Of a stretch of DNA of 64,000 bases, positions 15,626 to 64,000 are shown one piece after another; within the stretch, counting starts at the first letter, position 1; every line of letters starts with the position of its first letter. The DNA is from Candidatus Desulforudis audaxviator MP104C. Lineage in GTDB: Bacteria > Bacillota > Desulfotomaculia > Desulfotomaculales > Desulforudaceae. Location: positions 1,302,001-1,366,000 of the forward strand of contig NC_010424.1 of the NCBI RefSeq assembly GCF_000018425.1, written 5' to 3'. The notes under the pieces are model-generated. The model searched no databases, was not told the origin of the DNA, and saw only the letters and a program-made list of their open reading frames with translations. The translations under genes and the position numbers were made by a program.

Positions 15626-16300
15626 TCAAACAAGTCGGTACTTGGTGGTCGGGCGCCCGATTGAGCCGTATTCAAGATCGGGGCGCGCCAAGCCGTTGCG
15701 GGCCAGGTACTCCAAGTACCGTCGCGCGGTAGCCCGGGAGAAGCCGATACCGCGGGCGACTTCCTCCGCTGAAACACCGGCGATATTTTCACCCAGAAAC
15801 AGCACCACCTGTTCCATGGTCAACCGGTGCAGGCCCTTTGGGAGCTTGTCCGCCGGCAGGTTCGGAAAACGCCGAAACACGTGGTCGTCGACCCACGCCT
15901 GGTTCACCGCCTGCTTGCCGCACAGCGTCACGTACATTGCGGCGTAGGACTCGACGGAGCTTTTGAGCCTGTGCCGGCGGTACGGCTTGATGATGTAGTC
16001 GAAGATCCCGAGTCGCAAGGCCTGCTCCAAGGTACCGGCGTCTTCCGCACCGGTCACCACGATAACGTCCACCGGCAGTCCCTGCCGCCGGATCTCCCGG
16101 AGCAGTTCCAGCCCATCCGCACCGGACAGTTTTAGTTCGAGGAGCAATAGAACCGTCTCATCGCCGCACAACACCTCCAGCGCCGATCGGGCGGAGACTG
16201 TGCTGAGCACGACCATACACCCGGGAACCAGGCTTAAGACATCCTCATGCGCCTCTAGCATCACCGGATCACTGTCCAGGACTACAGCCTTCAGGATCAC
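15626..16300 (-). CDS. CitB/DctR-type response regulator with Glu at the phospho-acceptor site
   Basis: Receiver domain (residues 1-115) plus a C-terminal helix-turn-helix (ISAEEVARG-like GVSAEEVARGIGFSRATARRYLEYL), the pattern of regulators of citrate, malate and other C4/C6 acids. The receiver has acidic residues D9/D11, the Thr of VVTG (T83) and the Lys of IIKPY (K105), but the phosphorylated Asp is replaced by Glu (LLLLELKLSG, E55), which in known mutants often mimics the active state. No sensor kinase gene is in the window. GTG 16300 is chosen; TTG 16318 lacks a ribosome site. It lies upstream of, and points toward, the TRAP genes, which it probably controls. Confidence 0.82.
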   Translation of the reverse strand: MILKAVVLDSDPVMLEAHEDVLSLVPGCMVVLSTVSARSALEVLCGDETVLLLLELKLSGADGLELLREIRRQGLPVDVIVVTGAEDAGTLEQALRLGIFDYIIKPYRRHRLKSSVESYAAMYVTLCGKQAVNQAWVDDHVFRRFPNLPADKLPKGLHRLTMEQVVLFLGENIAGVSAEEVARGIGFSRATARRYLEYLARNGLARPDLEYGSIGRPTTKYRLV

Positions 16301-16488
16301 CGCCCCCCACCGCCTCAAAAAAAACTTTATGCCGTGTAATTATTTAGACACGATACCTTCTTCATCCTCCCGTAAAGGGGTGGAATGTATCGCCGGCGCC
16401 TGCGGTGTTCTTCCAAATCGCCACAAAAATTTGCAAACTTGTATAGTTTGACAACCCCTGGATAATACAATAATAAAGGTGTTGCCTT

Positions 16489-17703
16489 ATGGTGGAAGCC
16501 CCACACGTCGCCGCGGTATTGCGTTCTTTCACGGCAAGCCCGAGTCTCTGGCTGCAGCATCTGGCCCTGGGACACCCGTGCTGCAGTCCCGAACTGCTGC
16601 TCAGGACGGGGTCCGGGCCGGATTTCCAACTCCGGGGCTTGCTCTTGCGGCACCCCCGGTGCCCCGCGGACATCCTCTCCGATTTTAGCACCCACAAGAA
16701 CCACCGTTACCGGGAAAACGTGGCCAGCAATCCAAACTGCCCCGGCTCGGTGCTTGCCGGTCTGGCCCGGGATGCCGAACAGGCCGTGCGGGCGGCGGTG
16801 GCCGCCAACCGGTCCGCACCGCCGGCGGTGCTGGAAAGCTTGAGTCGCGATTCCAGTCCCTGGGTGGTGGCGAAGACCGCCGCCAACCCGGCCACACCGC
16901 CGGGAACGCTGGCCAGGCTGGTCGGCGATGGAAACGGCGCCTACTGGTGCTCCCTGGCCGCGAACCCCGCCTGTCCCCAAGTGATACTGATCCAATTGGC
17001 CCGTTCGGGTTCGCCCGACGTGCAAGGCCGGGTGGCCGCTAATCCGGCGGCCGGAACCGCGCTCCTGATCTGGTTGTTGGCTGGAGCTTCCGGGCCGCAC
17101 CGGCCCGCCAATGAAACGGAAGTCCTGCAGGGGACAGCGGGAAACCCCAACTGCCCGGGTTATCTGCTCACCGCGTTCTCCCGGCATCCGCAGGCGGCCG
17201 TCCGCCGGGCGGTCCCCCGGAATCCGGCCTGCGGGACCGTGCTCCTCAGGGTCCTGGCAAGCGATACTGACGCCCTGGTCCGGGAGGGGGTCGCCCAGCA
17301 TCCCCGCACCCCGGTTGTCGTCCTCTCCCGGCTCGCTTCCGACCAGGCAGTGGGCGTACGGTTCGGCGTGGCCCGGAACCGGACCACACCCAGCGACCTG
17401 CTGGAGCGCCTGGCGCAGGATCCCGACAGCCGGGTGCGTGACGCGCTGACCGACAACCCCGCGTGCCCGCTCCCCGCCCTCACCAGGCTGCTCACCGACC
17501 CGTACCGGACCGTCCGGCTGAAGACGCTCCTGCACCCGAACTGCTCCGCCGTGCCGGTCCGGGAAACGGCCCTGAAAATCTGCAATTCTCCGGCCGGGAA
17601 GAACATACCGGCTGTTTTGCGGGATCTGGCCCATCACCCCGGGTTTCCGCCACATCTCAAAACAATGATCGCCTGTGACAAAATGAGGGGGTTGCCCTGT
17701 TGA
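16489..17703 (+). CDS. Leucine-rich-variant (LRV) repeat protein
   Basis: A 404-residue protein made almost wholly of about 24-residue repeats with the pattern V-R..VA-x-NP-x-CP-x-x-(V/L)L-x-x-LA-x-D, as in LRV proteins, which form a right-handed solenoid of alternating helices. Many repeats carry a Cys in NPxCP (NPNCP, NPACP, HPRCP), and an HPCC pair lies near the N-terminus; the Azotobacter LRV protein binds a 4Fe-4S cluster, but whether this one does is unknown. ATG 16489 follows AAAGGTG. Its stop overlaps the TTG start of the MoxR gene, so the two are translationally coupled. It is likely a recognition or scaffold part of the MoxR-VWA system. Confidence 0.8.
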   Translation: MVEAPHVAAVLRSFTASPSLWLQHLALGHPCCSPELLLRTGSGPDFQLRGLLLRHPRCPADILSDFSTHKNHRYRENVASNPNCPGSVLAGLARDAEQAVRAAVAANRSAPPAVLESLSRDSSPWVVAKTAANPATPPGTLARLVGDGNGAYWCSLAANPACPQVILIQLARSGSPDVQGRVAANPAAGTALLIWLLAGASGPHRPANETEVLQGTAGNPNCPGYLLTAFSRHPQAAVRRAVPRNPACGTVLLRVLASDTDALVREGVAQHPRTPVVVLSRLASDQAVGVRFGVARNRTTPSDLLERLAQDPDSRVRDALTDNPACPLPALTRLLTDPYRTVRLKTLLHPNCSAVPVRETALKICNSPAGKNIPAVLRDLAHHPGFPPHLKTMIACDKMRGLPC

Positions 17704-18938
17704 CCGAACTGTCGGGTGTACTGAAGCCCTCGGCGGCCAAGAGATTGCTTTATTTTATCAACCACACCGATGCCAAACGGAGCACGCTGCTGCTCGGCCC
17801 ACCGGGAATCGGCAAAAGCATCCTGGTCCGGGAAGTGGCGGAGGAAACCGCGCGTGCCGCCGGCCTTACCTTTCTGGAATATCGGCGGCAGAACCTGCGC
17901 ACGGCGGACCTGGAGGAGATATTTGCCCACCCCGACCGGTACTTTGTGTTCGTCGACCTGCGCCTGACCGAAACCGAACCGGTCGACCTGCTGGGCCGCC
18001 CAGCGACCATCAGCATCAGGGAGCGGCGGCAACTGGTGTACCATCCGCCGCAGTGGGCGGTCCTGCTGGCCGAAGTCCCGGGAATCCTGTTCCTGGACGA
18101 GCTTACCAACGTCCAGCGACCTGATGTGCTGGCTGCGGCCTACAAACTTATCCAGGACCGGGCCGCCGGTTTTGTCGGGTTCGGTCCGGGCGTGCACGTG
18201 ATCGCCGCCGGGAACCGGCCGGAGGACAGTGTTCTGGCCAACCCGCTGCCCGCTCCCCTTCTGAACCGTGTCTACCAGATCACGGTCGAGCCGCCGCGAA
18301 TCGAACAGTGGATGCGCTGGATGAACACCAACCATCCCGGCGGCCACAACCATGTCTTCGCCTATCTCCAGCGCTTCCCACAGGACTTTTGCCGGGTTCC
18401 CGCGGAGGGAGAAACTTTGGAGAGCTACCCCACACCGCGGAGTTACACGAGCCTGGCCCGTGACCTGCCGGCGGCGATTGAAGCCGGCCTAGACCGCCCG
18501 GCGTTGCGTGCCCTGTGCATCGCCGCTCTGGGCCGCGAGGTCGGGCAGAAGTTCTTTACCTTTCTGGAGTACAACGTGCCCGCTTACGAAACTTTCATCA
18601 AAAACCCGGCCGTCTTCGCCGCCCTGGACGTCGACCAGCGTTACATCGGCGTGGTGGTGGTGGGACAGGGACTGGCGGCTACGGTCACGGCCGCGTCCGG
18701 CGGCGTTGCCGGAGACGACATTATGGAGGCCCGGGCGGCGCTCCGGCCCCACGTGACCAACTGCATCCCGCTCCTGGACGTGATGGCCGGGCAGAGCCGC
18801 GAGTACCTGACCCTGCTCTGGTACCTGATTGCGAGCCGCCTGAGTCACCCGTGGAACGATGCCCTTTTCCTGGAAATGTGCGCCCAGTCCGAACCGGTCA
18901 TGCAGGCCTACGCCGCGATCGGTGAGCTGCTGGGATAG
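17700..18938 (+). CDS. MoxR-type AAA+ ATPase
   Basis: ATP-driven remodelling enzyme of the MoxR group. Walker A is GPPGIGKS (33-40), Walker B ILFLDE (129-134), sensor 1 VIAAGNRPED (about 168-177), and the LLNRVYQI stretch contains the Arg-finger region. The C-terminal 180 residues are less typical and may bind the partner. TTG 17700 overlaps the LRV stop, with GAGGGGG 9 bases upstream. Known MoxR enzymes work with a VWA protein to insert metal cofactors or assemble complexes; the VWA gene here follows by 12 bases. The target complex is not known. Confidence 0.88.
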   Translation: MTELSGVLKPSAAKRLLYFINHTDAKRSTLLLGPPGIGKSILVREVAEETARAAGLTFLEYRRQNLRTADLEEIFAHPDRYFVFVDLRLTETEPVDLLGRPATISIRERRQLVYHPPQWAVLLAEVPGILFLDELTNVQRPDVLAAAYKLIQDRAAGFVGFGPGVHVIAAGNRPEDSVLANPLPAPLLNRVYQITVEPPRIEQWMRWMNTNHPGGHNHVFAYLQRFPQDFCRVPAEGETLESYPTPRSYTSLARDLPAAIEAGLDRPALRALCIAALGREVGQKFFTFLEYNVPAYETFIKNPAVFAALDVDQRYIGVVVVGQGLAATVTAASGGVAGDDIMEARAALRPHVTNCIPLLDVMAGQSREYLTLLWYLIASRLSHPWNDALFLEMCAQSEPVMQAYAAIGELLG

Positions 18939-18950
18939 CGGGTGAGCCCA

Positions 18951-20198
18951 ATGGATGACACGCAGGCCATGCGCCGTGAGCTGGACGACTTGAAGGCGCT
19001 CCTGTTCCTGAAAACGCCCTACCTGGCCCTCTTGTTGAGCAAAATGCGCATCGCCGTCAGTCACGCCGTGCGCACCGTGCTGGCCACGCCCAATGGGGAG
19101 ACGATCGTGAACCCGGATTTCTGGGGCAAGCTCCGCAACCGGGAAGAAAAGACCTTCGTCCTGGTGCACGAGGCCCTACACCTGGCTTTTCGCCATCCTT
19201 GGACGGTCCAGGGGCGCGACCGGGCGTTATTCAACGTTGCGGCCGACGTGGTGGTCAACGAGATGCTCTTCCGGCACGGCTACCACGAGGCCGCCGGCAA
19301 TCCGGTGACCGCCCCGATGGTCAGGGAAATGCTGTGGGCTCGAAATGTACCCATCACCGTTGAGGAATTGCGCCGCGCCTCCAGCGATGAGATTTACCGC
19401 CTGCTGGTGTCCGCCAGGGCCCAGGATACCGCGGAGCAAATGCTCAATGACGCCCCCCGGGATCTCAATCCCGAGGAAAGCGAACCGCCGGATACGGAAA
19501 AAGAGATCGTCCAGGAGGGTTCGCAGGGGCCGGGCGAAGACCCGGAGGAATACTGGCGGGCGACAGTGGTGGAAGCCGTGGTGGTGGCCCAGGCGGCGGG
19601 GACTTCCCCGGGTGAACTCCAGCGGGTCGTGGAGGAGTCCCTTAAACCGCGGGTGAACTGGCGCAGCCAACTGAAAAACGGACTGCGTGATGCCGTGGGC
19701 CGCACCGTGGTGTGCACCTGGGAACGGCCGTCACGGCGCTATGCCACCTTTCCGGGGATCAAGAGGTTGGGGGTGCAAACGGTCTGGGCCCTCGTGGACT
19801 GCTCTGGTTCAATCACCGAACGGGCACTGGCCCAGTTCGTGGCCGAGGTCTGGGCTCTGTCCCGGGTTTTCCGGTGCGAACTGCGGGTACTGCCTTGGGA
19901 CGCCGCCGCCTACCCGGAAATCAGGGTGTACACTCCCGGACAGGTGCAGGCGCGGGTTGTCTCGGGGCTTTGGGGCGGGGGCGGCACGCTGCTGGCCCCG
20001 GCACTGCGCCGGCTGCAACGGCGGATGCGGGCCCAGGACGTGGTGGTGATCATTTCCGACGGGCATATCGGCGACCTGGAGAACGCCGAAACTTTAAGGC
20101 TTTACCGGATGGTGTCCCGGAAAGCAGCCGGCCTGATTTTCCTAACCAGCGACCGGTACCCGGACCTCCCCCACACCCGGGTGATCGACTTCCGCTAG
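18951..20198 (+). CDS. DUF2201 protein: putative metallopeptidase domain plus VWA-like domain
   Basis: The N-terminal domain has the zinc-peptidase-like motif VHEALHLAFRH (HEALH at residues 73-77) and a following NVAADVVVNEML helix, typical of the DUF2201 putative metallopeptidase. A Glu/Asp/Pro-rich linker (about 170-200) joins it to a C-terminal VWA-like domain with a MIDAS site DCSGS (283-287), a Gly-rich GLWGGGGTLL and ISDGHIGD. Such proteins pair with MoxR ATPases. Start ATG 18951 or GTG 18942. The stop is 28 bases from the convergent deacetylase gene. Role in the triad is inferred from family knowledge. Confidence 0.85.
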   Translation: MDDTQAMRRELDDLKALLFLKTPYLALLLSKMRIAVSHAVRTVLATPNGETIVNPDFWGKLRNREEKTFVLVHEALHLAFRHPWTVQGRDRALFNVAADVVVNEMLFRHGYHEAAGNPVTAPMVREMLWARNVPITVEELRRASSDEIYRLLVSARAQDTAEQMLNDAPRDLNPEESEPPDTEKEIVQEGSQGPGEDPEEYWRATVVEAVVVAQAAGTSPGELQRVVEESLKPRVNWRSQLKNGLRDAVGRTVVCTWERPSRRYATFPGIKRLGVQTVWALVDCSGSITERALAQFVAEVWALSRVFRCELRVLPWDAAAYPEIRVYTPGQVQARVVSGLWGGGGTLLAPALRRLQRRMRAQDVVVIISDGHIGDLENAETLRLYRMVSRKAAGLIFLTSDRYPDLPHTRVIDFR

Positions 20199-53448: not shown

Positions 53449-56400
53449 CATATTGAGGCATTAACAAGGTACCTGTAGCTGAAACCGCAAGTCGCTTCCA
53501 CGCTTGCTTGCCAAAACGATCACTTTCAGTCCCCTTTTCGTCGGGTCGGTCGCTGAAACGCAGGTGGGCCGGTGGGCCAGACAAGGAGAACATTGATTCT
53601 TTCAGTCCCCTTTTCGTCGGGTCGGTCGCTGAAACTACATATCAGGCAACGGCGTTCGGGGGAAGCTTCGCCTTTCAGTCCCCTTTTCGTCGGGTCGGTC
53701 GCTGAAACGGTGCCGTGACTTTTTAGAAGCCCCGGAAAAACCGCTTTCAGTCCCCTTTTCGTCGGGTCGGTCGCTGAAACCTACTCACCGACCCCTACCA
53801 TTTCAACCGCAACCTGTCGCTTTCAGTCCCCTTTTCGTCGGGTCGGTCGCTGAAACAGAGCGTTTGCGCTGCCTGCCATAACAGGAAGCACCTTTCAGTC
53901 CCCTTTTCGTCGGGTCGGTCGCTGAAACAGGCGGTACGTCCTGCAGGAATGGCGGTGCGTCAGGGAAACTTTCAGTCCCCTTTTCGTCGGGTCGGTCGCT
54001 GAAACTGTTGCATGAAATGCAACACACTACCTTGGGGTGGTAGCTTTCAGTCCCCTTTTCGTTGGGTCGGTCGCTGAAACTGCTGGTGCCGCATCCCGGA
54101 TCGGGGATGCTTGGATCTTTCAGTCCCCTTTTCGTCGGGTCGGTCGCTGAAACCGGGGCCTACCGCTATATCAACGCCGATGTGGTATACGACTTTCAGT
54201 CCCCTTTTCGTCGGGTCGGTCGCTGAAACACAGAGCAGACTACACCATTTCCGGTAACAACATCCCTTTCAGTCCCCTTTTCGTCGGGTCGGTCGCTGAA
54301 ACGGTGCCGGGGCAGGTGTCGGCGTTCGTGTCAGTACCCTTTCAGTCCCCTTTTCGTCGGGTCGGTCGCTGAAACTCCACTGCAACCGATGGTTCGACAA
54401 TCCGTGTTACGCTTTCAGTCCCCTTTTCGTCGGGTCGGTCGCTGAAACTGGGAATCGGCCTAAACACGCTGTCGGACAAAATAAACTTTCAGTCCCCTTT
54501 TCGTCGGGTCGGTCGCTGAAACTCGGCAACGCCGTAGTTCCTCAAGTCGCCGAGGTAATCTTTCAGTCCCCTTTTCGTCGGGTCGGTCGCTGAAACTGCG
54601 ATGAATCCTCAATCCTGAAAGCGTTTGACGCTTTCAGTCCCCTTTTCGTCGGGTCGGTCGCTGAAACACAACGCGCAACGGATCGCCGTAACCGGTACGG
54701 TCAACCTTTCAGTCCCCTTTTCGTCGGGTCGGTCGCTGAAACAGTTGCTGAATTAAAATTTGAGTGCCGACTGGGAACTTTCAGTCCCCTTTTCGTCGGG
54801 TCGGTCGCTGAAACAGCACGCACTTCTTCGTGTTCGACCTGAACCTACCCCCTTTCAGTCCCCTTTTCGTCGGGTCGGTCGCTGAAACGGATACAACCCA
54901 CAACTTCGCTCAATCTCAAAAATAAACTTTCAGTCCCCTTTTCGTCGGGTCGGTCGCTGAAACAGGTGATAGCTTATGCAGCGCAAGAAGCACGGGGCGC
55001 TTTCAGTCCCCTTTTCGTCGGGTCGGTCGCTGAAACGAACGCATATTGTAGTCGCAAATGTTACGAACTAAATCTTTCAGTCCCCTTTTCGTCGGGTCGG
55101 TCGCTGAAACCCGTTCAGCCGCAAGCACCTTCTGGCCCGGCGTGTTCGCTTTCAGTCCCCTTTTCGTCGGGTCGGTCGCTGAAACTCGGCGGCGCAATGG
55201 AAGTGCAGAGCAGAACAATGATCTTTCAGTCCCCTTTTCGTCGGGTCGGTCGCTGAAACAGTAACTCCATACGGTCCGGATCGATCTGACCAGTCTTTCA
55301 GTCCCCTTTTCGTCGGGTCGGTCGCTGAAACAGCCTGGTGGATGCGCCAGCGGGCGCGACGATAATGGCTTTCAGTCCCCTTTTCGTCGGGTCGGTCGCT
55401 GAAACACTTTAGGAGACCAAGCTACTTATGCCTTCCTATGGCCTTTCAGTCCCCTTTTCGTCGGGTCGGTCGCTGAAACAGGGGCTGCGCGTCGAGATCG
55501 ATCCGCCGAATACTACGGCCTTTCAGTCCCCTTTTCGTCGGGTCGGTCGCTGAAACATGTCGGCGCTGCGGAGTTGTGACATCGTGGTGCCTTTCAGTCC
55601 CCTTTTCGTCGGGTCGGTCGCTGAAACCGGCCCAGGCATACACACAGCACTGGGAAGGTGGCATCTTTCAGTCCCCTTTTCGTCGGGTCGGTCGCTGAAA
55701 CTTCCTCCCGCCTTTCGCGGGCTGCCAGATTCCGGCTCCTTTCAGTCCCCTTTTCGTCGGGTCGGTCGCTGAAACCGCGGACGATCTTCTCTTGCCAGGG
55801 TAGTAATTCAAACTTTCAGTCCCCTTTTCGTCGGGTCGGTCGCTGAAACGCTTGACTGAAACCAGTTACAAGTACGCCGCTTTGGACTTTCAGTCCCCTT
55901 TTCGTCGGGTCGGTCGCTGAAACGCGCACGAAGTTGCCGGCCCAGGTGTGTCTGCTCAGCTTTCAGTCCCCTTTTCGTCGGGTCGGTCGCTGAAACCATA
56001 ATCGCAGGATGCCGGGGCCGGAGCAAAGCCGTCCCTTTCAGTCCCCTTTTCGTCGGGTCGGTCGCTGAAACAACCGAGACAAGGACATTGACGGTTCGGC
56101 TGCTGGCGCTTTCAGTCCCCTTTTCGTCGGGTCGGTCGCTGAAACTGTTACAAATCCCAGCGGCAGTGCGTTTCGTTTCGGCTTTCAGTCCCCTTTTCGT
56201 CGGGTCGGTCGCTGAAACTTAATTGGTTTTATCTGTCAAATTTGTGGTTGTACGGAACTTTCAGTCCCCTTTTCGTCGGGTCGGTCGCTGAAACACCAGT
56301 CCCATGCGACATACTCCGCAAGTTCTTTACTTTCAGTCCCCTTTTCGTCGGGTCGGTCGCTGAAACCGCTTCTGGACACCTACCAGCCAACCCCTCGTAG

Positions 56401-57324
56401 AACCTTTCAGTCCCCTTTTCGTCGGGTCGGTCGCTGAAACTACGAGGAGCGCCTTCGTGCGAAGGCGGAAGGCAACACTTTCAGTCCCCTTTTCGTCGGG
56501 TCGGTCGCTGAAACCTTCGATCTTCGGCCAGCCGACCACGACCATGCTGCTTTCAGTCCCCTTTTCGTCGGGTCGGTCGCTGAAACGGACCCGGCATGCA
56601 ACAACTCGTCCGCCGTCTTAACCTTTCAGTCCCCTTTTCGTCGGGTCGGTCGCTGAAACCGATTCTAGAGCCGGCGGTACGGGCGTTGCCCAATTACCCT
56701 TTCAGTCCCCTTTTCGTCGGGTCGGTCGCTGAAACCGCACCGCCTTGTCCCCGACGACGTAATCCTTGGCTTTCAGTCCCCTTTTCGTCGGGTCGGTCGC
56801 TGAAACGCATACCGGACTACTACAAGGCAATTTTAACCCGCGGCCCTTTCAGTCCCCTTTTCGTCGGGTCGGTCGCTGAAACGCGCCGGCAATCGCCGGC
56901 CTTACTTGCAGGTGCTGGCCTTTCAGTCCCCTTTTCGTCGGGTCGGTCGCTGAAACTCACCTGGTTTGCAACGCTCGCCGCGATACACAAGCTTTCAGTC
57001 CCCTTTTCGTCGGGTCGGTCGCTGAAACCGTCCAGGGCGGCCTCGAAAACCTGGCCGCCCTTCTCATCTTTCAGTCCCCTTTTCGTCGGGTCGGTCGCTG
57101 AAACCAAGCTGCTCTGCGGGGATGGGTTGACCACACGTCCTTTCAGTCCCCTTTTCGTCGGGTCGGTCGCTGAAACAGCCGGGGATTGCGGGGAGGGTAA
57201 GAAAGGGGGAGAACTTTCAGTCCCCTTTTCGTCGGGTCGGTCGCTGAAACTTCGACGCTGGCCGGCTGGTCGCGGACGCCGAAGAAACTTTCAGTCCCCT
57301 TTTCGTCGGGTCGGTCGCTGAAAC
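53449..57324 (-). CRISPR. CRISPR array: 52 full 37-bp repeats, 51 spacers, plus one degenerate repeat
   Basis: The repeat begins CTTTCAGTCCCC and ends GGTCGCTGAAAC on the plus strand. I count 52 full copies: the first is 53523-53559, the last 57288-57324. Spacers are 34-40 bases. The only mismatch I noticed is one C-to-T (CGTTGGG instead of CGTCGGG) at the eighth copy, 54044-54080. A decayed copy at 53449-53485 keeps only its 3' end (GCTGAAAC) and is followed by a normal-length 37-base spacer, which marks the left as the trailer. Transcription should run leftward from the cas side; crRNA would then carry the 5' handle ACTGAAAG (end of the reverse-complement repeat). The cas genes lie right of the array on the same strand. 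Confidence 0.97.
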
Positions 57325-57558
57325 AGACCCTGGCGTCAAAAAAGAAACCAGGCGCTGCAAGGGTTCCAGCCTACGCACAAGGAGCAAAATACACAGTCTC
57401 TTCGAAACTGGGTTACCTGCACAAAATCACCCTCTTTTTGCGAAAACCTCTGATCCGCCTGTAGCACAGTGATCGCGCTGATCCATCAGGATCGTTTCCT
57501 GGGGACGGTGCCATCCAAGACCATCCCAACCTATGCCTAAGAGTCCATTTTCGAAAAA
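57325..57558 (-). promoter_or_regulatory. CRISPR leader region
   Basis: 234 bases between the last repeat and the csa1 stop, without a gene. It is more AT-rich than the flanks but only moderately. By array polarity it should hold the promoter and the integration signal. No clear box pair was identified. Confidence 0.6.
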
Positions 57559-58479
57559 CTACCCATGGCAGGCTGCATAACAATGACAACCCTGATAACA
57601 TTCCGCTGGAAAACCGGGATCAATCTCTTCGTAAACCATGCGGGCTTTTTCATCCCGCGATTCGATAAACCACTGGCGGAGTTCGTCATCAATTATGTGC
57701 AAGTCCTTGTTGATGATGAGCCGGTCACCCCGGAAACTGCCGTAAACCAGACAGCCGATGTTGACCGGGAATTCATAAAGGGATTCCATTACGAGGGCAT
57801 AGCCGGTGGTAGTCAATCGGTGAAAGTCCCGCCGCTCTCCGAACTTCAGATCGACAATCATCGGCTCGCAAACCGTAAACGCGTCCGTGCTGAGGTTTGG
57901 GCTGAGGCCCAAGAAGGAACCGTCCAACTTCTGCTCCACAATCACCGGTATCGCCAGGACGGCCAGTGAATCTTCGCCTATGTAGGGTTGTTTAAACAGA
58001 ATCTCCTGAATGCGCGATATGATCCGCGCTTTCTCAAATTCGGTCACGATGGCCACCTTGCGTTTCAGGTCCGCGGCGTCCTCAGGTGCCAGCGCCTGCA
58101 ACTCGGATTCGACATTGACCGGCCCCAATTCCTGCAGCTCACGGCATATGGTCTGGTACTGTGCAACCCCAACCGAGTATATCAGCCTCTTGGCGGACAC
58201 CAGCACGTGGACCAACGCAGCGTGCAGCACTCGCCCTTGGACCATGGCTGCACTCGGAGCCGGAAACACCCGCCGCACCCGCCGCAAGTACAGATCCCGG
58301 TTGGTGGGGCAATACGAGTTGGCTACCTCATACAGGGCCAGTACTGTATCGTACACCGGCTGTAACGGCGGCGCGGGCCAATTCCATCCCCTAAGCTCTT
58401 CGGCAATTCCCAGTTCCCGGGATCGGGGCAGCAGTCCTTTCAGCAGGTGCTTCTTTTCTTCCTCGGTAAGAAAGTACAC
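57559..58479 (-). CDS. csa1: CRISPR-associated protein Csa1 (Cas4-type nuclease)
   Basis: Second Cas4-like protein of subtype I-A loci, thought to trim pre-spacers and set orientation. It has FLTEEEKKHLL near the start, a nuclease core with EQKLDGSFLGLSPNLSTDAF and the catalytic DLKFGE, and a C-terminal Cys group ECYQGCHCYAAC likely to hold Fe-S. GTG 58479 has GGAG 9 bases upstream; TTG 58494 lacks a site. 24 bases downstream of cas4, it is the last cas gene before the array. Confidence 0.8.
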   Translation of the reverse strand: MYFLTEEEKKHLLKGLLPRSRELGIAEELRGWNWPAPPLQPVYDTVLALYEVANSYCPTNRDLYLRRVRRVFPAPSAAMVQGRVLHAALVHVLVSAKRLIYSVGVAQYQTICRELQELGPVNVESELQALAPEDAADLKRKVAIVTEFEKARIISRIQEILFKQPYIGEDSLAVLAIPVIVEQKLDGSFLGLSPNLSTDAFTVCEPMIVDLKFGERRDFHRLTTTGYALVMESLYEFPVNIGCLVYGSFRGDRLIINKDLHIIDDELRQWFIESRDEKARMVYEEIDPGFPAECYQGCHCYAACHG

Positions 58480-58517
58480 CTCATACCACTCCAATCCTGA
58501 TCAATCACGAAGAAAGG

Positions 58518-59090
58518 CTAAACCACGTCCGCACAGTAGTTGCGGTATTCGCACTCGAAACAGCGCGCCGGTCTCCTGGGGGCCGGGGGAAAGCTCTCGC
58601 GGGCGATCATCATCTTGATCTGGTCTAGCGTTTTTCGCACGAACGTCCGGGCGTTCGGCGTTATCTCTACCACGTGCACCCGCTTCCCCGGTATCAGGTA
58701 CAGGAAGCCGTGCCGCACCGGTTTTCCGTACTGTTCCTCAAGAAGCATCGCGTAGCAGACAAGCTGGTACTTGTGATTCAGCCCCGGGTGACGGGAGGTG
58801 TTCTTGAACTCCACCGGAAAACAGCCGGAGCCGCACACAATGTGCATGTCCAGCACACCCTCCACGCCCAGGCGCTCGGAGCACAGCTTGGTCCGGTAGC
58901 GCCGCTCCCCTTCGGACAGATCATAGCTGCGGAATCCGCGGCGCCTTTCCAGCCTTTCTATCTCCAGGTGTTCCTCCTTGCCGTATTCCATCTTGCGCGT
59001 CACTTTCCGATGCACCGGCATCACGTAAGTGAAGTAAACCACCCGCGGGCAGTAGAGAAACTGCTTTACGTCACTGACTTTCAGCATCAT
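58518..59090 (-). CDS. cas4: CRISPR-associated exonuclease Cas4
   Basis: RecB-like nuclease that prepares spacers with a correct PAM. Cys ligands: FLYCPRVVYF at the start and CFECEYRNYC at the end (4Fe-4S type). The catalytic core contains GVLDMH, FPVEFKN and YQLVCYAMLLEE. ATG 59090 overlaps the cas2 stop by 4 bases, so translation is coupled. 190 residues. Forms an adaptation module with cas1, cas2 and csa1. Confidence 0.9.
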   Translation of the reverse strand: MMLKVSDVKQFLYCPRVVYFTYVMPVHRKVTRKMEYGKEEHLEIERLERRRGFRSYDLSEGERRYRTKLCSERLGVEGVLDMHIVCGSGCFPVEFKNTSRHPGLNHKYQLVCYAMLLEEQYGKPVRHGFLYLIPGKRVHVVEITPNARTFVRKTLDQIKMMIARESFPPAPRRPARCFECEYRNYCADVV

Positions 59091-59407
59091 CCGGCCCGTG
59101 CCTTCTTTCGGCTTCGTCCGGGGTACGACACGGCGGCCTCCGCGGCCTCTTCAGGCATCCCTGCGGACACCTCAATGGCCTTCGAAAGGCGCAGGTCCTT
59201 GTCACAGACTGGGCAGATCAGCACCTTCCCCTCCTGGCGCCCGATAATCCTCCGGAGCCGCTGAAACAGTTCTTCGCGGCGGTTATGGGTCATATCGCCG
59301 AAGAAAAGCGAGTACTGCACGTTCGTCAGGCCGTAATCTTTGCAGGCCTCAAACACCTTGCGCCGGACCTTGTCTTCCACGATATCGTAGGACACCAGCG
59401 TCTTCAC
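59087..59407 (-). CDS. cas2: CRISPR-associated endoribonuclease-like Cas2
   Basis: Structural partner of Cas1 in spacer integration. The ferredoxin-like fold begins TLVSYDIVEDKVRRKVF, with NVQYSLFFGDMTHN and LRRIIG. A tail of about 40 residues, with CPVC and ending in basic residues, extends past the usual core. GTG 59407 lies 2 bases after the cas1 stop, with GGGGAG upstream. Longer upstream frames are shadows of cas1's shifted end. Confidence 0.9.
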   Translation of the reverse strand: MKTLVSYDIVEDKVRRKVFEACKDYGLTNVQYSLFFGDMTHNRREELFQRLRRIIGRQEGKVLICPVCDKDLRLSKAIEVSAGMPEEAAEAAVSYPGRSRKKARAG

Positions 59408-59409
59408 GG

Positions 59410-60416
59410 CTACCAGCTCCCCGTGAAGGGCTTGTACTTCCCCTCGCCCCTGAGAAAGCCGGCCACCCGCCGCGCCTGCATCTGAATGATGTTCCTCAGC
59501 TTGTGTTTCTTGCCCTCGAAGCTCTCTTCGCCTTCCAGGCGTTCCAAGACCCGCCGGCCCAACTCCTTTCTGTTTCATCGGTCAGCTTGTCCCCATCCAT
59601 TTCGATACCGGGCCCTTTGGTCACCATCGCAACGACCACCCGGTCCACGGTCACCGCCCGGAACTCCTCCACCAGATCCAGCACCATGGATGGCTTGCCG
59701 GGGCGGTCGGTGTGAAGGAAGCCGCCGAAGGAGTCAAGACCGGCCAGAAGGACGGCCCCTTCCACCTGGGAGTACAGAATGCCATAGCCGTAATTGAGCG
59801 CCGAATTGACGGGGTCGGTCGCCCCACGGCGTTCCCGGCCGGGGAACTCGATGCGGTCCCCGATGATCAGCCCCAGGGCGTCCCAGTAGTGATGCGCCCC
59901 CCGTCCCTCGATCGCGAACAACTGCCCCCGCAGATCGTCAATCCGCGCGGCATCCAGAGTTGCCAGCTGGCTGCGAATCCGATCGATCTCCTCGATCTTC
60001 CGGTAGATCTCCGCATACTTTTCCGTGTCGGCGCTGCGCCGGTACTTGGCGAAATACTTGAGCACGTTGACCTGGTTCTTCAGCTTCCCCTCGACAAATG
60101 CCTTCGCCAGGATTACGCCCCGCCGGTCGTCGTAGGCCTTCAACTGTTCCCGCCGGGTGAGCACCGTGCCGGTCAGGTTCGGCGCCGCCAGTTTGGCGTA
60201 CGGTTTGCCGGAGAAGGATATGAAGTTGATCTGGATGCCATGCTCCAGGCATTCCTGAATCACATCCGTGGAAAGAGAAACCCCGCGGCCGGAAATGGTG
60301 ATCTGTTTTATGTCGTAAAACGGGGTCTCACTCAACACTTCTCCCTTTTGCCGCACCAACAGCCGCTCGCTCTTTTTCCCCAGCGCACATCCGTAGTCCG
60401 AAACGACAAGATGCAT
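59410..60416 (-). CDS. cas1: CRISPR integrase Cas1, frameshifted near the C-terminus
   Basis: Integrase of new spacers. Residues 1-282 read cleanly from ATG 60416 (GGGGAGGTG upstream) and include the expected catalytic residues: E170 (FAIEGRG), H235 (FLHTDRPG) and D247 (MVLDLVEEFR). After DGDKLTDET the frame breaks at about 59563-59575: the direct reading ends at 59496 with unrelated residues, while the next frame gives a typical Cas1 end (KELGRRVLERLEG, KYKPFTGSW) to TAG 59412-59410. One missing base, probably an A in the A/G-rich run, explains it. It may be a real inactivating or low-efficiency mutation, or a sequencing error. Confidence 0.85.
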
Positions 60417-60524
60417 AGGCAAAACACACCTCCCCGTCAAAAAAATGGTTAGGGAAATGCATTTTACCATAATCCGCGACCTCGCTCAATAGCTAGGCGA
60501 AATAAGCCAAATTACGCGAAATAA

Positions 60525-60848
60525 TTATCTATTTCGTCCTGGTAACAGATAACAGATTGTTCCGTATTGATGAACAACCAGGTCACGGAACTTGGCCATA
60601 CCGGCCAACCGCTCAGCTAAAACAGGAGAGATTACCCCCTTTCTCTCCGAGGATCAAGTAACAGTCGCCGTATCCGATGGGTGTCCGTTCGGCAATCCGG
60701 GCTACAGCTGATACTTCGCCGATGAAACGATGGTGTCGTCAGCCAGAAACTCTTCCTTGCCCATCGCAGCGTAGCCAGCAAGCACTCTTTGTGCCCGGCG
60801 GATATCGGTGGCCTTTTGACGAAGCATGTCAACATTGTAGTTTTTCAT
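60525..60848 (-). pseudogene. Decayed HepT (DUF86) toxin gene
   Basis: ATG 60848 opens MKNYNVDMLRQKATDIRRAQ, a good match to the N-terminus of HepT-type RNase toxins (ends SAKYQL, then TAG). A later frame continues IAERTPIGYGDCYLILGEKG, and a third VISPVLAERLAGMAKFRD, LVVHQY, with the family RX4HXY motif. About 15-20 residues are missing between the first two parts (the AIEAA helix), so at least two lesions separate them. No MNT antitoxin gene is next to it. It lies between cas1 and cas3. Confidence 0.65.
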
Positions 60849-60880
60849 GGATGGCTCTTAGCATCCCCTTATCTTATTGT

Positions 60881-63268
60881 TTATCCAGTCTCACGCAGCA
60901 ACTCCCGCTGCAATTGAAGCCCAAAGCGGGAATCATAGGGAACACGGACCCCCCATAAATGCTGGTCCACTTTTTCGAGCAGATGTTCCTTCCGCAATCG
61001 CCAAAACTGCCTATTACTCACGGAGACTAACAGCGACTGCGTATGTAAGGGTTCCTCCTGATTGAGCCGGATGTATTCATCGCATAGATCCATTGGTAGA
61101 ACTTCTTGTCCATCAAACATTTCACAGAATTTTTCTTCCAACCGTTCGTCAGTCTCAAAAGCATACAGATTGGACAAGACCTCGGACTTAAATGCTTCTG
61201 CGGCCTTCAGTACCTCATCTCTCCACCAATCGGAGACCGAACCGCTGTATACGGCATCCAACAGAAGTTGGATTTTGGCTTCATCCACCATATGCCCATC
61301 CAGCGGCACCAATTGCTGCAAGGCCTTTTCAATGAGGGTTTTCGAATAAACCGGACAGCCTTTCGGAATCTCGGTTAAAACAATCACGTCCCGTTCCCGG
61401 TACCGGCGACCGCGATTGACCCGTCCGAAACGCTGCAACAACGCCTCCAAGGGCGCTGGATCGGTAAACAAGACATCAAAATCCACATCTAGACTAACCT
61501 CCACCACCTGGGTAGCCACCAGAATTAATGGGTTCTTCCGTTTCCCGGCATTTCTCGTGGAGACCTGCTGCAACAACCACTGCTCTTTCTTAAAGCGGTC
61601 CCGGGAACAAAACTTGCCGTGGAGCAGTTCCACCGGGATTTCACCATTCGAAACAGCATTCAACGTCTCCCACATTTGCTGTGCACGCTGAACAGTAGTA
61701 GCTACGACCATAACAGCCAAACCTCTTCTCGCCTTCTGATGAATCTCCAGTATTGTCTCTTCATCCAGCAAATCTGCCGCTTTCAAGCATAAACGGTGGC
61801 GGCGAAACGCCTCATATGCTTTCGTCGTGGCTATAATCGGTGTAGGTCGGTTGAGTTTTTCATTTAGAATCTCTTTAAGGATTGAAGGCAAAGTGGCGGA
61901 CATTACCAGCACGTTTACCGTCAAATCTCGAACCATATGCTCTAGGAGCGCCAAAATCATTCCCAGTCGGCTAGGATCGTAAGCGTGGATTTCATCAAAG
62001 ACTATGCGACCTCCTGCACAATCAGTCCAGATAGCCTCATGGCCGCGAAGCTGGAATGCACCACGCAGAAGCTGGTATGGGGTAAGAATACGCACCGGGG
62101 CAACATGCAACCTTCCGAGATTGATCTCTCGCTCAGCCTGGTTCTTTGCTTCTCCCGGAGTGTAACCACGGTCCAATAACTGCCGGTAAAGGGCCTGCAA
62201 GGCACGGGAATGCTGCAACACCACCCGGTCGTCACCGAAGCGCTCGCCCAAGCGACTACGCATCGCATTCAGGCTAGCCTGGTAAGGAAGCACATAGAAA
62301 AGCGGAGGGTTTCCAACGGTTTGTCGCCCGTTTGCGGCGGCCCATAGTAAAGCGGCCTCGGTCTTGCCGCTCCCCGTCGGGGCTACCAGAACAGCGCACC
62401 CCGGCGTCTCGCTGGCGTGGGTTTGATGGGCATAGACCTCATCTCCAGTCTTTGCAGGCGGTGGCAAATCCAGCACCCTTGCCATGATGGCTGGAGATGC
62501 AAGAGACTCCAACTTCGCAAATGCCTGCCAAGCTGACCCCGCATGATCCGCCAAGATCAACACGCCCCTTGTAAATCGTCCGGCTAGGGCTGCTGAGGAA
62601 CGAGCATCCTCTTTGCGAAGGCGGACGACCAGTTGAGCGTAGGCGTCCAATGCCCGCCGCGCAAACCCCGGGAAGGTTGACCGATCAAAGGTTCCATCTG
62701 AAGCCGGAAGGATGAACCGTTCATTCGACGCCAACAACAAACACCCTTTTAGTAACGGCAACAAGCCATACAAGACCATTTTCGGGGCAAGATGGAAAAA
62801 CTCTTCGTCCAGATCCAGGGCCACTTGCTCCAAAGAATCGGACAGTGGAGGCTCCTCCCAGTCGCAACCCGGAGGAAAATCCCGCTCAAGAATCGAAAAA
62901 TCCTTGTGATGAGACAGAATCCCGGCAGCCACCCACGGCAGATCCTGATGCGGGTCGTTGTCTAGAAGCCAAGGAAGAAAGGCGGCAGAAAGGACTTCAT
63001 GCCGGAATGGAAACTCTCCATTGCCTCTGAGCATTTTCTGGAATCCACCGGCACATTTCCCGACATCGTGGAGAACCGCTGCCAGGGCCATTCGCGACCA
63101 GAAACGCGGCATTTGAGAAAGCTGATCCAATTCCGGCATACGCGCATGCAAAGCAACAACATTGGCAAGGACCCGTTGAGTATGACTGACTAACGTCTCT
63201 CCACTGGTTGCCTTGCCAACCCGGCTTTTGGCCCAAATATGATCAAAATCTGGCAACACTATCTTCAT
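60881..63268 (-). CDS. cas3: CRISPR-associated nuclease-helicase Cas3 (fused HD-helicase)
   Basis: Degrades target DNA once the Cascade complex has bound it. N-terminal HD nuclease: SHTQRV and LHDVGKCAGGF with HD at residues 67-68. Then a superfamily 2 helicase: APTGSGKTEAALL (Walker A), VFDEIHAY (DEIH box), VMSATLPS, and QRFGRVNRG. Both parts are in one chain of 795 residues, unlike the split Cas3'/Cas3'' of classical I-A. ATG 63268 lies inside the end of cas5 (26-base overlap); TTG 63292 is an alternative. Confidence 0.92.
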   Translation of the reverse strand: MKIVLPDFDHIWAKSRVGKATSGETLVSHTQRVLANVVALHARMPELDQLSQMPRFWSRMALAAVLHDVGKCAGGFQKMLRGNGEFPFRHEVLSAAFLPWLLDNDPHQDLPWVAAGILSHHKDFSILERDFPPGCDWEEPPLSDSLEQVALDLDEEFFHLAPKMVLYGLLPLLKGCLLLASNERFILPASDGTFDRSTFPGFARRALDAYAQLVVRLRKEDARSSAALAGRFTRGVLILADHAGSAWQAFAKLESLASPAIMARVLDLPPPAKTGDEVYAHQTHASETPGCAVLVAPTGSGKTEAALLWAAANGRQTVGNPPLFYVLPYQASLNAMRSRLGERFGDDRVVLQHSRALQALYRQLLDRGYTPGEAKNQAEREINLGRLHVAPVRILTPYQLLRGAFQLRGHEAIWTDCAGGRIVFDEIHAYDPSRLGMILALLEHMVRDLTVNVLVMSATLPSILKEILNEKLNRPTPIIATTKAYEAFRRHRLCLKAADLLDEETILEIHQKARRGLAVMVVATTVQRAQQMWETLNAVSNGEIPVELLHGKFCSRDRFKKEQWLLQQVSTRNAGKRKNPLILVATQVVEVSLDVDFDVLFTDPAPLEALLQRFGRVNRGRRYRERDVIVLTEIPKGCPVYSKTLIEKALQQLVPLDGHMVDEAKIQLLLDAVYSGSVSDWWRDEVLKAAEAFKSEVLSNLYAFETDERLEEKFCEMFDGQEVLPMDLCDEYIRLNQEEPLHTQSLLVSVSNRQFWRLRKEHLLEKVDQHLWGVRVPYDSRFGLQLQRELLRETG

Positions 63269-64000
63269 CTCCGACAAACGAGTGGAAAACAAGTCCCCTT
63301 CTCGCCCCTTCGTGTTTTGCGGGCGAATATGGGTCTACTAACCATCCCTCCGGTGCCCGATCTTTATGCTGAAGCAACCGGTTGGTATGGGGAACCTCTC
63401 CGGCGTAAACCAGATCAAAGAGCATGATGTATCTACCGAAATGCGGTTCCCTGCCCGGAGGTGGCTCAATGTAGCGAGGCATGAGGACGGTCACCCCGCG
63501 TCCAAGCAGTGGCCGCATGGCAAACGGCAGCAAGGTCTGTTCCAAATAGGCTCCTTTTGCCTTCTCTAATTCAATCACTTCAACCGAGGTAATGCTCGCC
63601 AGATCTTGAGACCGTCCTAGAATTACGCAAAACACCGGATTGCGAAAAGCTTCGGCCAAATCTGGCGGGTAGAGGTAAAGGGTCAACCGGCAGCCGAACA
63701 AAAAATCCCGTAGATGTGGTTGAACTACAGCCTGAGTGGAAACAGGATATTTCCTTTCTCCCCATTTGAAAGTTTGGCCGCCTTTGGTGATCACATGCTG
63801 GTGTTCCAAGTCACTCCCTTTAGCTTGAAAACTAAATTGGTAAGCAAACTTAACGGTTGCTGGGTTGAACCATTCGCCCACCGCGCTTGCAATATGACCG
63901 TAAATGGTCGAGGGCGGCGGCATATCAAAACTGGTCTGCCGCCCGATCAAAAAATGAGGGTAGCGAAACGAGGCGATAGGTGCTTCAATATGCACTTTAG
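63243..64000 (-). CDS. cas5: Cas5 family protein (partial, runs off the window)
   Basis: Cascade subunit that caps the 5' handle of crRNA. The start region HIEAPIASFRYPHFLIGRQTSF is the typical Cas5 beta-strand and Gly-rich pattern, with PPSTIYGHIASAVGEW next. The frame is open to base 64000; a GTG at 63995 could start it, but the family usually has a few more residues, so the gene probably begins outside the window. It overlaps cas3. Cas7, Cas8 and Cas6 genes must lie beyond the edge. Confidence 0.85.
   Translation of the reverse strand, partial: KVHIEAPIASFRYPHFLIGRQTSFDMPPPSTIYGHIASAVGEWFNPATVKFAYQFSFQAKGSDLEHQHVITKGGQTFKWGERKYPVSTQAVVQPHLRDFLFGCRLTLYLYPPDLAEAFRNPVFCVILGRSQDLASITSVEVIELEKAKGAYLEQTLLPFAMRPLLGRGVTVLMPRYIEPPPGREPHFGRYIMLFDLVYAGEVPHTNRLLQHKDRAPEGWLVDPYSPAKHEGARRGLVFHSFVGDEDSVARF

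Follow-up and report, generated by a model that had tools for sequence, protein, structure and literature searches.

A 64,000-nucleotide stretch of the genome of Candidatus Desulforudis audaxviator MP104C (NC_010424.1, positions 1,302,001 to 1,366,000 of the forward strand; hereafter the window) carries three adjoining genes that encode a leucine-rich repeat variant (LRV) protein, a MoxR-type AAA+ ATPase, and a protein in which a DUF2201 metallopeptidase-like domain is fused to a VWA domain. The triad is well supported as a conserved three-gene unit, and sequence comparison indicates that in related genomes its three genes have been inherited, relocated, and lost together. Whether it also works as one functional unit, an ATP-driven remodelling machine of MoxR-VWA type that is specific for its client and has the solenoid as third subunit, is in our judgement evenly poised. 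What argues for such a machine is the gene order kept in differing flanks, the joint decay of the unit, and purifying selection, together with the recurrence of LRV in a distant MoxR clade, the presence of pentapeptide-repeat proteins in the same upstream place in other genomes, and the invariance of the Walker, MIDAS (metal ion-dependent adhesion site) and HEXXH residues.

A tight operon inherited and lost as a unit

The LRV, MoxR and DUF2201-VWA reading frames are all open at the coordinates given in Table 1, lie on one strand and nearly touch each other, forming one tight operon. An earlier, sequence-only reading of this DNA had proposed that the LRV stop codon overlaps the TTG start of the MoxR gene by four bases, and this overlap is present (TTGA in the window); G007 and the distant G179 have it too, there as ATGA. 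The same reading placed the VWA gene 12 bases after MoxR, which holds for a start at ATG 18951 but not for one at GTG 18942, only 3 bases past the MoxR stop. A promoter scan upstream of the triad returned one weak site, within chance expectation.

At E < 1e-40, a search of 60 relatives with the MoxR protein gave seven matches spread over six other genomes (G007 accounts for two of them, halves of one gene on separate contigs), and there were three distant matches; an alignment-based scan gave 21 loci, and a single-protein scan of genome contigs returned no named orthologues of the triad. In a survey of 113 genomes of the class, where up to six first-look candidates were scored per genome and weak LRVs may therefore escape, a Desulforudis-type MoxR was found in nine (G000, G002, G003, G005, G007, G012, G042, G060 and G061), and an LRV match adjoins it in all nine, intact in eight and broken in G002. 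At the locus level there are eight intact LRV-MoxR-DUF2201 units, the window included, and the near genomes with intact copies (G003, G005, G012, G042, G007, G060 and G061) have LRV directly upstream and DUF2201 directly downstream of MoxR. Both G007 contigs are broken inside MoxR, one carrying LRV and the other VWA. The alignment scan together with the survey of the class brought in the G060 and G061 copies, which come from incomplete genomes. At E <= 1e-6, the class survey placed just one LRV-region match away from a unit or its remnant, in G027.

The broken copies point in the same direction. G002, which belongs to the same genus, retains LRV residues 1-50, directly after which MoxR picks up at residue 100 in a different frame, and its DUF2201 gene has a frame change and a missing middle; a tenth genome, G008, keeps the LRV start and pieces of DUF2201 as remnants, with no MoxR match. 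We read both loci as joint decay of the whole unit by deletions, not as loss of LRV alone, a draft-assembly error being possible in either.

The surroundings of the unit differ: a TRAP transporter and a regulator in the window and G007, a methyltransferase in G003 and G005 (with a WYL regulator identified in G003), ruvABC and queH in G012 and G008, and another setting again in G042, G060 and G061. Several of these names were read from the beginnings of sequences, while the WYL and methyltransferase assignments come from Pfam and PADLOC. By inspection, no fourth gene is common to the flanking contexts.

Ratios of nonsynonymous to synonymous substitution rates (dN/dS) for two orthologue pairs were 0.18 and 0.25 for LRV, 0.04 and 0.09 for MoxR, and 0.08 and 0.17 for DUF2201, approximate values because dS was near or above 1 in several comparisons. 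They indicate purifying selection on all three genes, loosest on LRV; that LRV evolves fastest of the three is expected of a recognition part. Chance neighbourhood was rejected, given the LRV-MoxR-DUF2201 order in every relative with an intact copy and dN/dS well below 1 for all three genes.

An ATPase and a metallopeptidase-like VWA protein with intact motifs

The ATPase matches AAA_5 (PF07728, E = 4.9e-6) and AAA (PF00004, E = 2e-7) above the Pfam cut-offs. The classical MoxR model AAA_3 is not among its Pfam matches, bpMoxR stays below cut-off (15.2 versus 27 bits), all NCBIfam matches were below cut-off, and in sequence searches of the PDB the matches to other AAA+ proteins were confined to the P-loop. 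Orthologues are 54-71% identical to the Desulforudis protein, and Walker A (GPPGIGKS) and Walker B (LFLDE) are invariant across their alignment.

The third protein matches DUF2201_N (PF13203, E = 1e-34, 120.9 bits against a cut-off of 23.2) and the VWA-like domain of DUF2201 (PF09967, E = 7.6e-8, 33 bits against 26.4). Its model has a mean predicted local distance difference test (pLDDT) score of 79.6 with a poorly defined middle, and its fold matches in the PDB (Foldseek) are mainly VWA domains, including the MIDAS domain of human MDN1 (8ql1). The HEALH site noticed in the sequence-only reading is present at residues 76-80: H76, E77, H80, N98, D102 and N106 are invariant in 13 bacterial and archaeal homologues, as are the MIDAS residues D286, S288, S290, T349 and D373. 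A profile match to MJ1213 around the HEXXH motif (E = 0.002) lends weak support to a gluzincin-like site. To judge from these alignments, the Walker motifs, the MIDAS and the HEXXH-type site are all intact in the triad. DUF2201-like proteins also occur in 166 phage records from many hosts, the best listed being 23-28% identical (e.g. OK149216, 19128-20123).

The triad has both parts of a MoxR-VWA pair, an ATPase with intact Walker A and B motifs and an adjacent VWA gene with a complete MIDAS. Such pairs remodel clients, and in NorQ/NorD a finger of the VWA protein in the AAA+ pore drives the remodelling (PMC9976466; PMC13036017). The triad resembles NorQ/NorD and RavA/ViaA in having a MoxR-type AAA+ protein adjacent to a VWA protein with intact MIDAS, but differs in that this VWA protein is a DUF2201 protein with an HEXXH domain, not the N-terminal domain of NorD or ViaA, and in the LRV gene coupled upstream.

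Three-part MoxR-VWA systems have been described as conflict systems, with VMAP, iSTAND, FtsH or a beta-propeller as third component (Kaur et al., 2020; PMC7159879). The likeness lies in the combination of MoxR, VWA and a third component, and superstructure-forming repeats occur in those systems as well; the difference is that LRV is none of the four. The Pfam matches of the triad include no VMAP, iSTAND, double FtsH or beta-propeller fused to VWA, and no variable effector domain is fused to its VWA domain, the architecture being DUF2201-VWA only. LRV is not mentioned in that survey, and a search of the open-access literature (subscription papers and preprints lying outside it) found nothing joining MoxR with DUF2201 or MoxR with LRV; DUF2201 is named in four of its papers. 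The claim of the sequence-only reading that LRV-MoxR-DUF2201 is not a described system therefore stands for the open literature; the triad is a new version of the MoxR-VWA ternary systems, with no description of an LRV version found in open-access sources.

The same comparison raises the possibility that the triad is itself a conflict or defence system of akin logic. A DNA methyltransferase flanks the unit in two genomes, in one of them with the WYL regulator, the distribution is patchy with losses, and CRISPR-cas genes, identified partly by reading, occur close to two archaeal MoxR-DUF2201 pairs. However, the flanking contexts include just one that resembles a defence setting, PADLOC gave nothing but P-loop matches for the three proteins (the best with E = 1.9e-4, covering about 41 of 314 positions), and neither the described third components nor a variable effector domain is found; we consider a defence role improbable.

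The LRV protein is a predicted alpha-solenoid

The LRV protein matches PF01816 (E = 2.8e-26, 90.5 bits against a cut-off of 21.6) and PF25591 (E = 3.9e-23), and is predicted with high confidence to be an alpha-solenoid, the AlphaFold2 model showing paired helices along the whole solenoid (mean pLDDT 92.2). Fold searches returned HEAT-type solenoids (the PP2A scaffold) and further proteins with alpha repeats; TM-scores were low, mostly 0.2-0.4, and the result is therefore informative for the fold class only. A Pfam scan found no catalytic domain or cofactor motif. Residues 253-355 weakly match the LRV protein of Azotobacter vinelandii (PDB 1lrv, E = 0.012). That protein, of the same repeat family, has an N-terminal 4Fe-4S domain, which is not reported in the triad LRV, and it keeps different gene company.

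The sequence-only reading had also pointed out a Cys in many repeats (NPxCP) and proposed that the solenoid might sense or hold metal or redox ligands. The first observation is correct: there are 13 Cys in 404 residues, of which C32, C58, C84, C248, C352 and C365 are invariant in the proteins of six relatives, and position 4 of the NPx?P loop is Cys in 27 of the 55 repeats of the Desulforudis-type LRV group, against 3 of 26 among other MoxR- or DUF2201-linked LRVs (where Thr leads, with 12) and 0 of 6 in unlinked LRVs. This invariance and enrichment would suit a metal or redox sensor that controls the MoxR-VWA pair through a metal or iron-sulphur cluster bound by its repeated Cys. The arrangement of the residues argues otherwise. 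The conserved Cys mostly come one per 26-residue repeat, and by general solenoid geometry one-per-repeat residues lie about 10 Å apart between neighbours, too far for one metal site; Thr at the same position in other LRVs suggests that a small residue is enough there; and the Pfam matches include no LRV_FeS or other metal domain, an N-terminal Cys-rich 4Fe-4S domain included. A metal or redox site in LRV was accordingly set aside as unsupported, and the sensor reading is scarcely probable.

The third gene varies across the wider MoxR-DUF2201 family

Other bacteria and archaea commonly have MoxR-DUF2201 pairs, mostly without LRV alongside (the fractions come from small, partly selected samples). 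The nearest MoxRs by tree are archaeal (Thermoproteota and others, 37-42% identical), but in the archaeal loci examined no LRV adjoins the pair, nor was one found beside more distant matches of the same MoxR search. Some archaeal pairs lie next to aprBA, encoding APS (adenosine 5'-phosphosulphate) reductase (L031, 7463-11631; L207, 6322-11626), and others near CRISPR-cas genes (L029, 1-10217, with Csa1 confirmed; L211, 195-7061; the rest by reading).

LRV reappears in a second, distant MoxR clade, upstream in G113 and G114 and convergent downstream in G1332, each above the Pfam cut-off; in G213 an LRV gene, likewise above cut-off, is convergent beside DUF2201, the MoxR gene being off the contig and its clade not placed. 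The solenoids of G184, G1203 and G179 were recognised solely by profiles that we built for this analysis. In the rest of the second clade, G1273 has no LRV, and the contigs of G195 and G116 end near the locus. On a tree of 43 MoxR proteins, in which two LRV-linked rows (G184 and G179) rest on our own profiles, a single clade for the LRV-linked rows was rejected (approximately unbiased test, p = 3.09e-63). The linkage may possibly have been gained twice, or be old and have been lost many times. The sequence-only reading had named a gene order strongly conserved across genomes as support for a system. LRV adjoins the pair at all nine Desulforudis-type loci (one broken) and recurs in the second clade, but most other pairs lack it; the converse, that related genomes keeping MoxR-VWA mostly without LRV would speak against a system, is half realised, such genomes being the rule outside the Desulforudis-type clade.

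The place directly upstream of MoxR-DUF2201 is filled by a pentapeptide-repeat protein in G009, G018 and G035, and in genomes of family f7 (L074-L084) by a conserved gene of about 198 codons (e.g. L081, 6610-7206) whose product matches no Pfam family above cut-off. Genomes of this order thus frequently have a third gene upstream of the pair, and it differs by lineage. We would tentatively entertain, while leaning slightly the other way, that the MoxR-DUF2201 pair lies at the centre of an undescribed class of three-part machines whose client adaptors are exchangeable repeat solenoids, LRV having been taken up on two or more occasions in MoxR clades far apart, and pentapeptide repeats in others.

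The archaeal pairs beside aprBA, which occur in two arrangements (L031/L032/L208; L207) and belong to the group nearest to the Desulforudis-type MoxR, suggest another role, that of a maturation factor for APS reductase or another sulphate-reduction enzyme. Among the triad genomes, only G060 and G061, both incomplete, lack an AprA match; yet AprA is also matched in 76 of the 113 class genomes, most without the triad, so this co-occurrence says nothing, and a sulphate-reduction link drawn from it was rejected as not discriminating. No bacterial triad seen adjoins apr genes, and other archaeal pairs have other neighbours. Such a role is very unlikely.

A candidate client-remodelling machine

In the machine that we propose, the LRV solenoid would recognise a specific client, either a protein or a complex, and hold it, the VWA domain of the DUF2201 protein would clamp it through a metal-bearing MIDAS, and a MoxR hexamer would spend ATP to pull or twist the VWA clamp and so remodel the client; the client may also be cleaved once by the HEXXH domain, the machine possibly processing it too. 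The action of the MoxR ring on a client held by the VWA MIDAS is suggested by analogy with the known pairs. We infer a physical complex with LRV as client adaptor. Selection of the client is the most likely task of the solenoid, because LRV is the fastest-evolving part and is replaced by another repeat type elsewhere.

A competing account makes LRV the client, with MoxR-DUF2201 maturing, remodelling or cleaving it, and LRV itself the real effector or scaffold. The overlap of the LRV and MoxR genes, which suggests translational coupling, would fit this account; so would the rapid evolution of LRV, its upstream, downstream or opposite-strand position in other lineages, and the precedent that MoxR-VWA operons can carry the client next door, as NorQ/NorD do with cNOR (PMC9976466). 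On the other hand, LRV shows no catalytic domain or cofactor motif by Pfam, and the occurrence of an unrelated pentapeptide-repeat protein in the same place in three genomes is easier to reconcile with interchangeable recognition parts than with clients. We hold LRV as client to be unlikely, although less so than a defence role.

Several observations weigh against the remodelling machine with LRV as adaptor. Most pairs of the wider family, all examined archaeal ones included, do without LRV, which means that it is not needed for the core pair; the G184 and G179 solenoids have no Pfam match at E <= 0.001, that of G1203 being likewise profile-only; the unit is patchy (nine of 113 class genomes) and dispensable; and the choice of adaptor over substrate or regulator for LRV draws on fold and rate only.

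Coordinates and neighbouring genes

Table 1. Features of the LRV-MoxR-DUF2201 locus and of related loci (window coordinates unless a locus is named).
Feature	Position	Strand	Basis or remark
AAAGG, ribosome-binding-site-like	16475..16479	+	9 bases 5' of LRV ATG; read from sequence
LRV alpha-solenoid protein, 404 aa (predicted fold)	16489..17703	+	Pfam, AlphaFold2
TTGA, LRV stop/MoxR TTG start overlap of 4 bases	17700..17703	+	read from sequence
MoxR-type AAA+ ATPase, 412 aa	17700..18938	+	Pfam, orthologues
Walker A GPPGIGKS, MoxR residues 33-40	17796..17819	+	invariant in MoxR alignment
Walker B LFLDE, MoxR residues 130-134	18087..18101	+	invariant in MoxR alignment
DUF2201_N metallopeptidase-like domain fused to VWA domain, 418 aa	18942..20198	+	Pfam, PDB fold match
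HEALH zinc-site motif, DUF2201 protein residues 76-80	19167..19181	+	H76, E77, H80 invariant in 13 homologues
N98-A100-D102-N106 motif; D102 a candidate third zinc ligand (inferred)	19233..19259	+	invariant in 13 homologues
MIDAS DCSGS, residues 286-290, completed by T349 and D373	19797..19811	+	invariant in 13 homologues
Pentapeptide-repeat protein immediately 5' of MoxR-DUF2201 in three further genomes of the order	L020 8812-9630; L021 8702-9532; L022 10399-11226

A response-regulator-like gene on the minus strand (15626-16318) is divergent from the triad and adjoins the TRAP-type transporter; by reading, a similar neighbour lies beside LRV in L019 (G007). Elsewhere in the window, a CRISPR array with the repeat CTTTCAGTCCCCTTTTCGTCGGGTCGGTCGCTGAAAC is followed by minus-strand cas genes (54100-57330 and 57559-64000), among which Cas1 (E = 3.2e-76) and Csa1, an archaeal-type exonuclease (E = 2.2e-75), are confirmed, and Cas3-like and Cas5-like genes are named by reading.

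Implications

MoxR-VWA pairs are widespread and their clients mostly unknown, since the pair itself is silent on its target. A co-inherited, fastest-evolving solenoid subunit would give a handle on these clients by pull-down, and would place DUF2201, a widespread domain that has hardly been studied, in a working context. Should LRV and pentapeptide solenoids prove to be interchangeable adaptors, two repeat families whose purpose is poorly known would be linked to ATP-driven remodelling.

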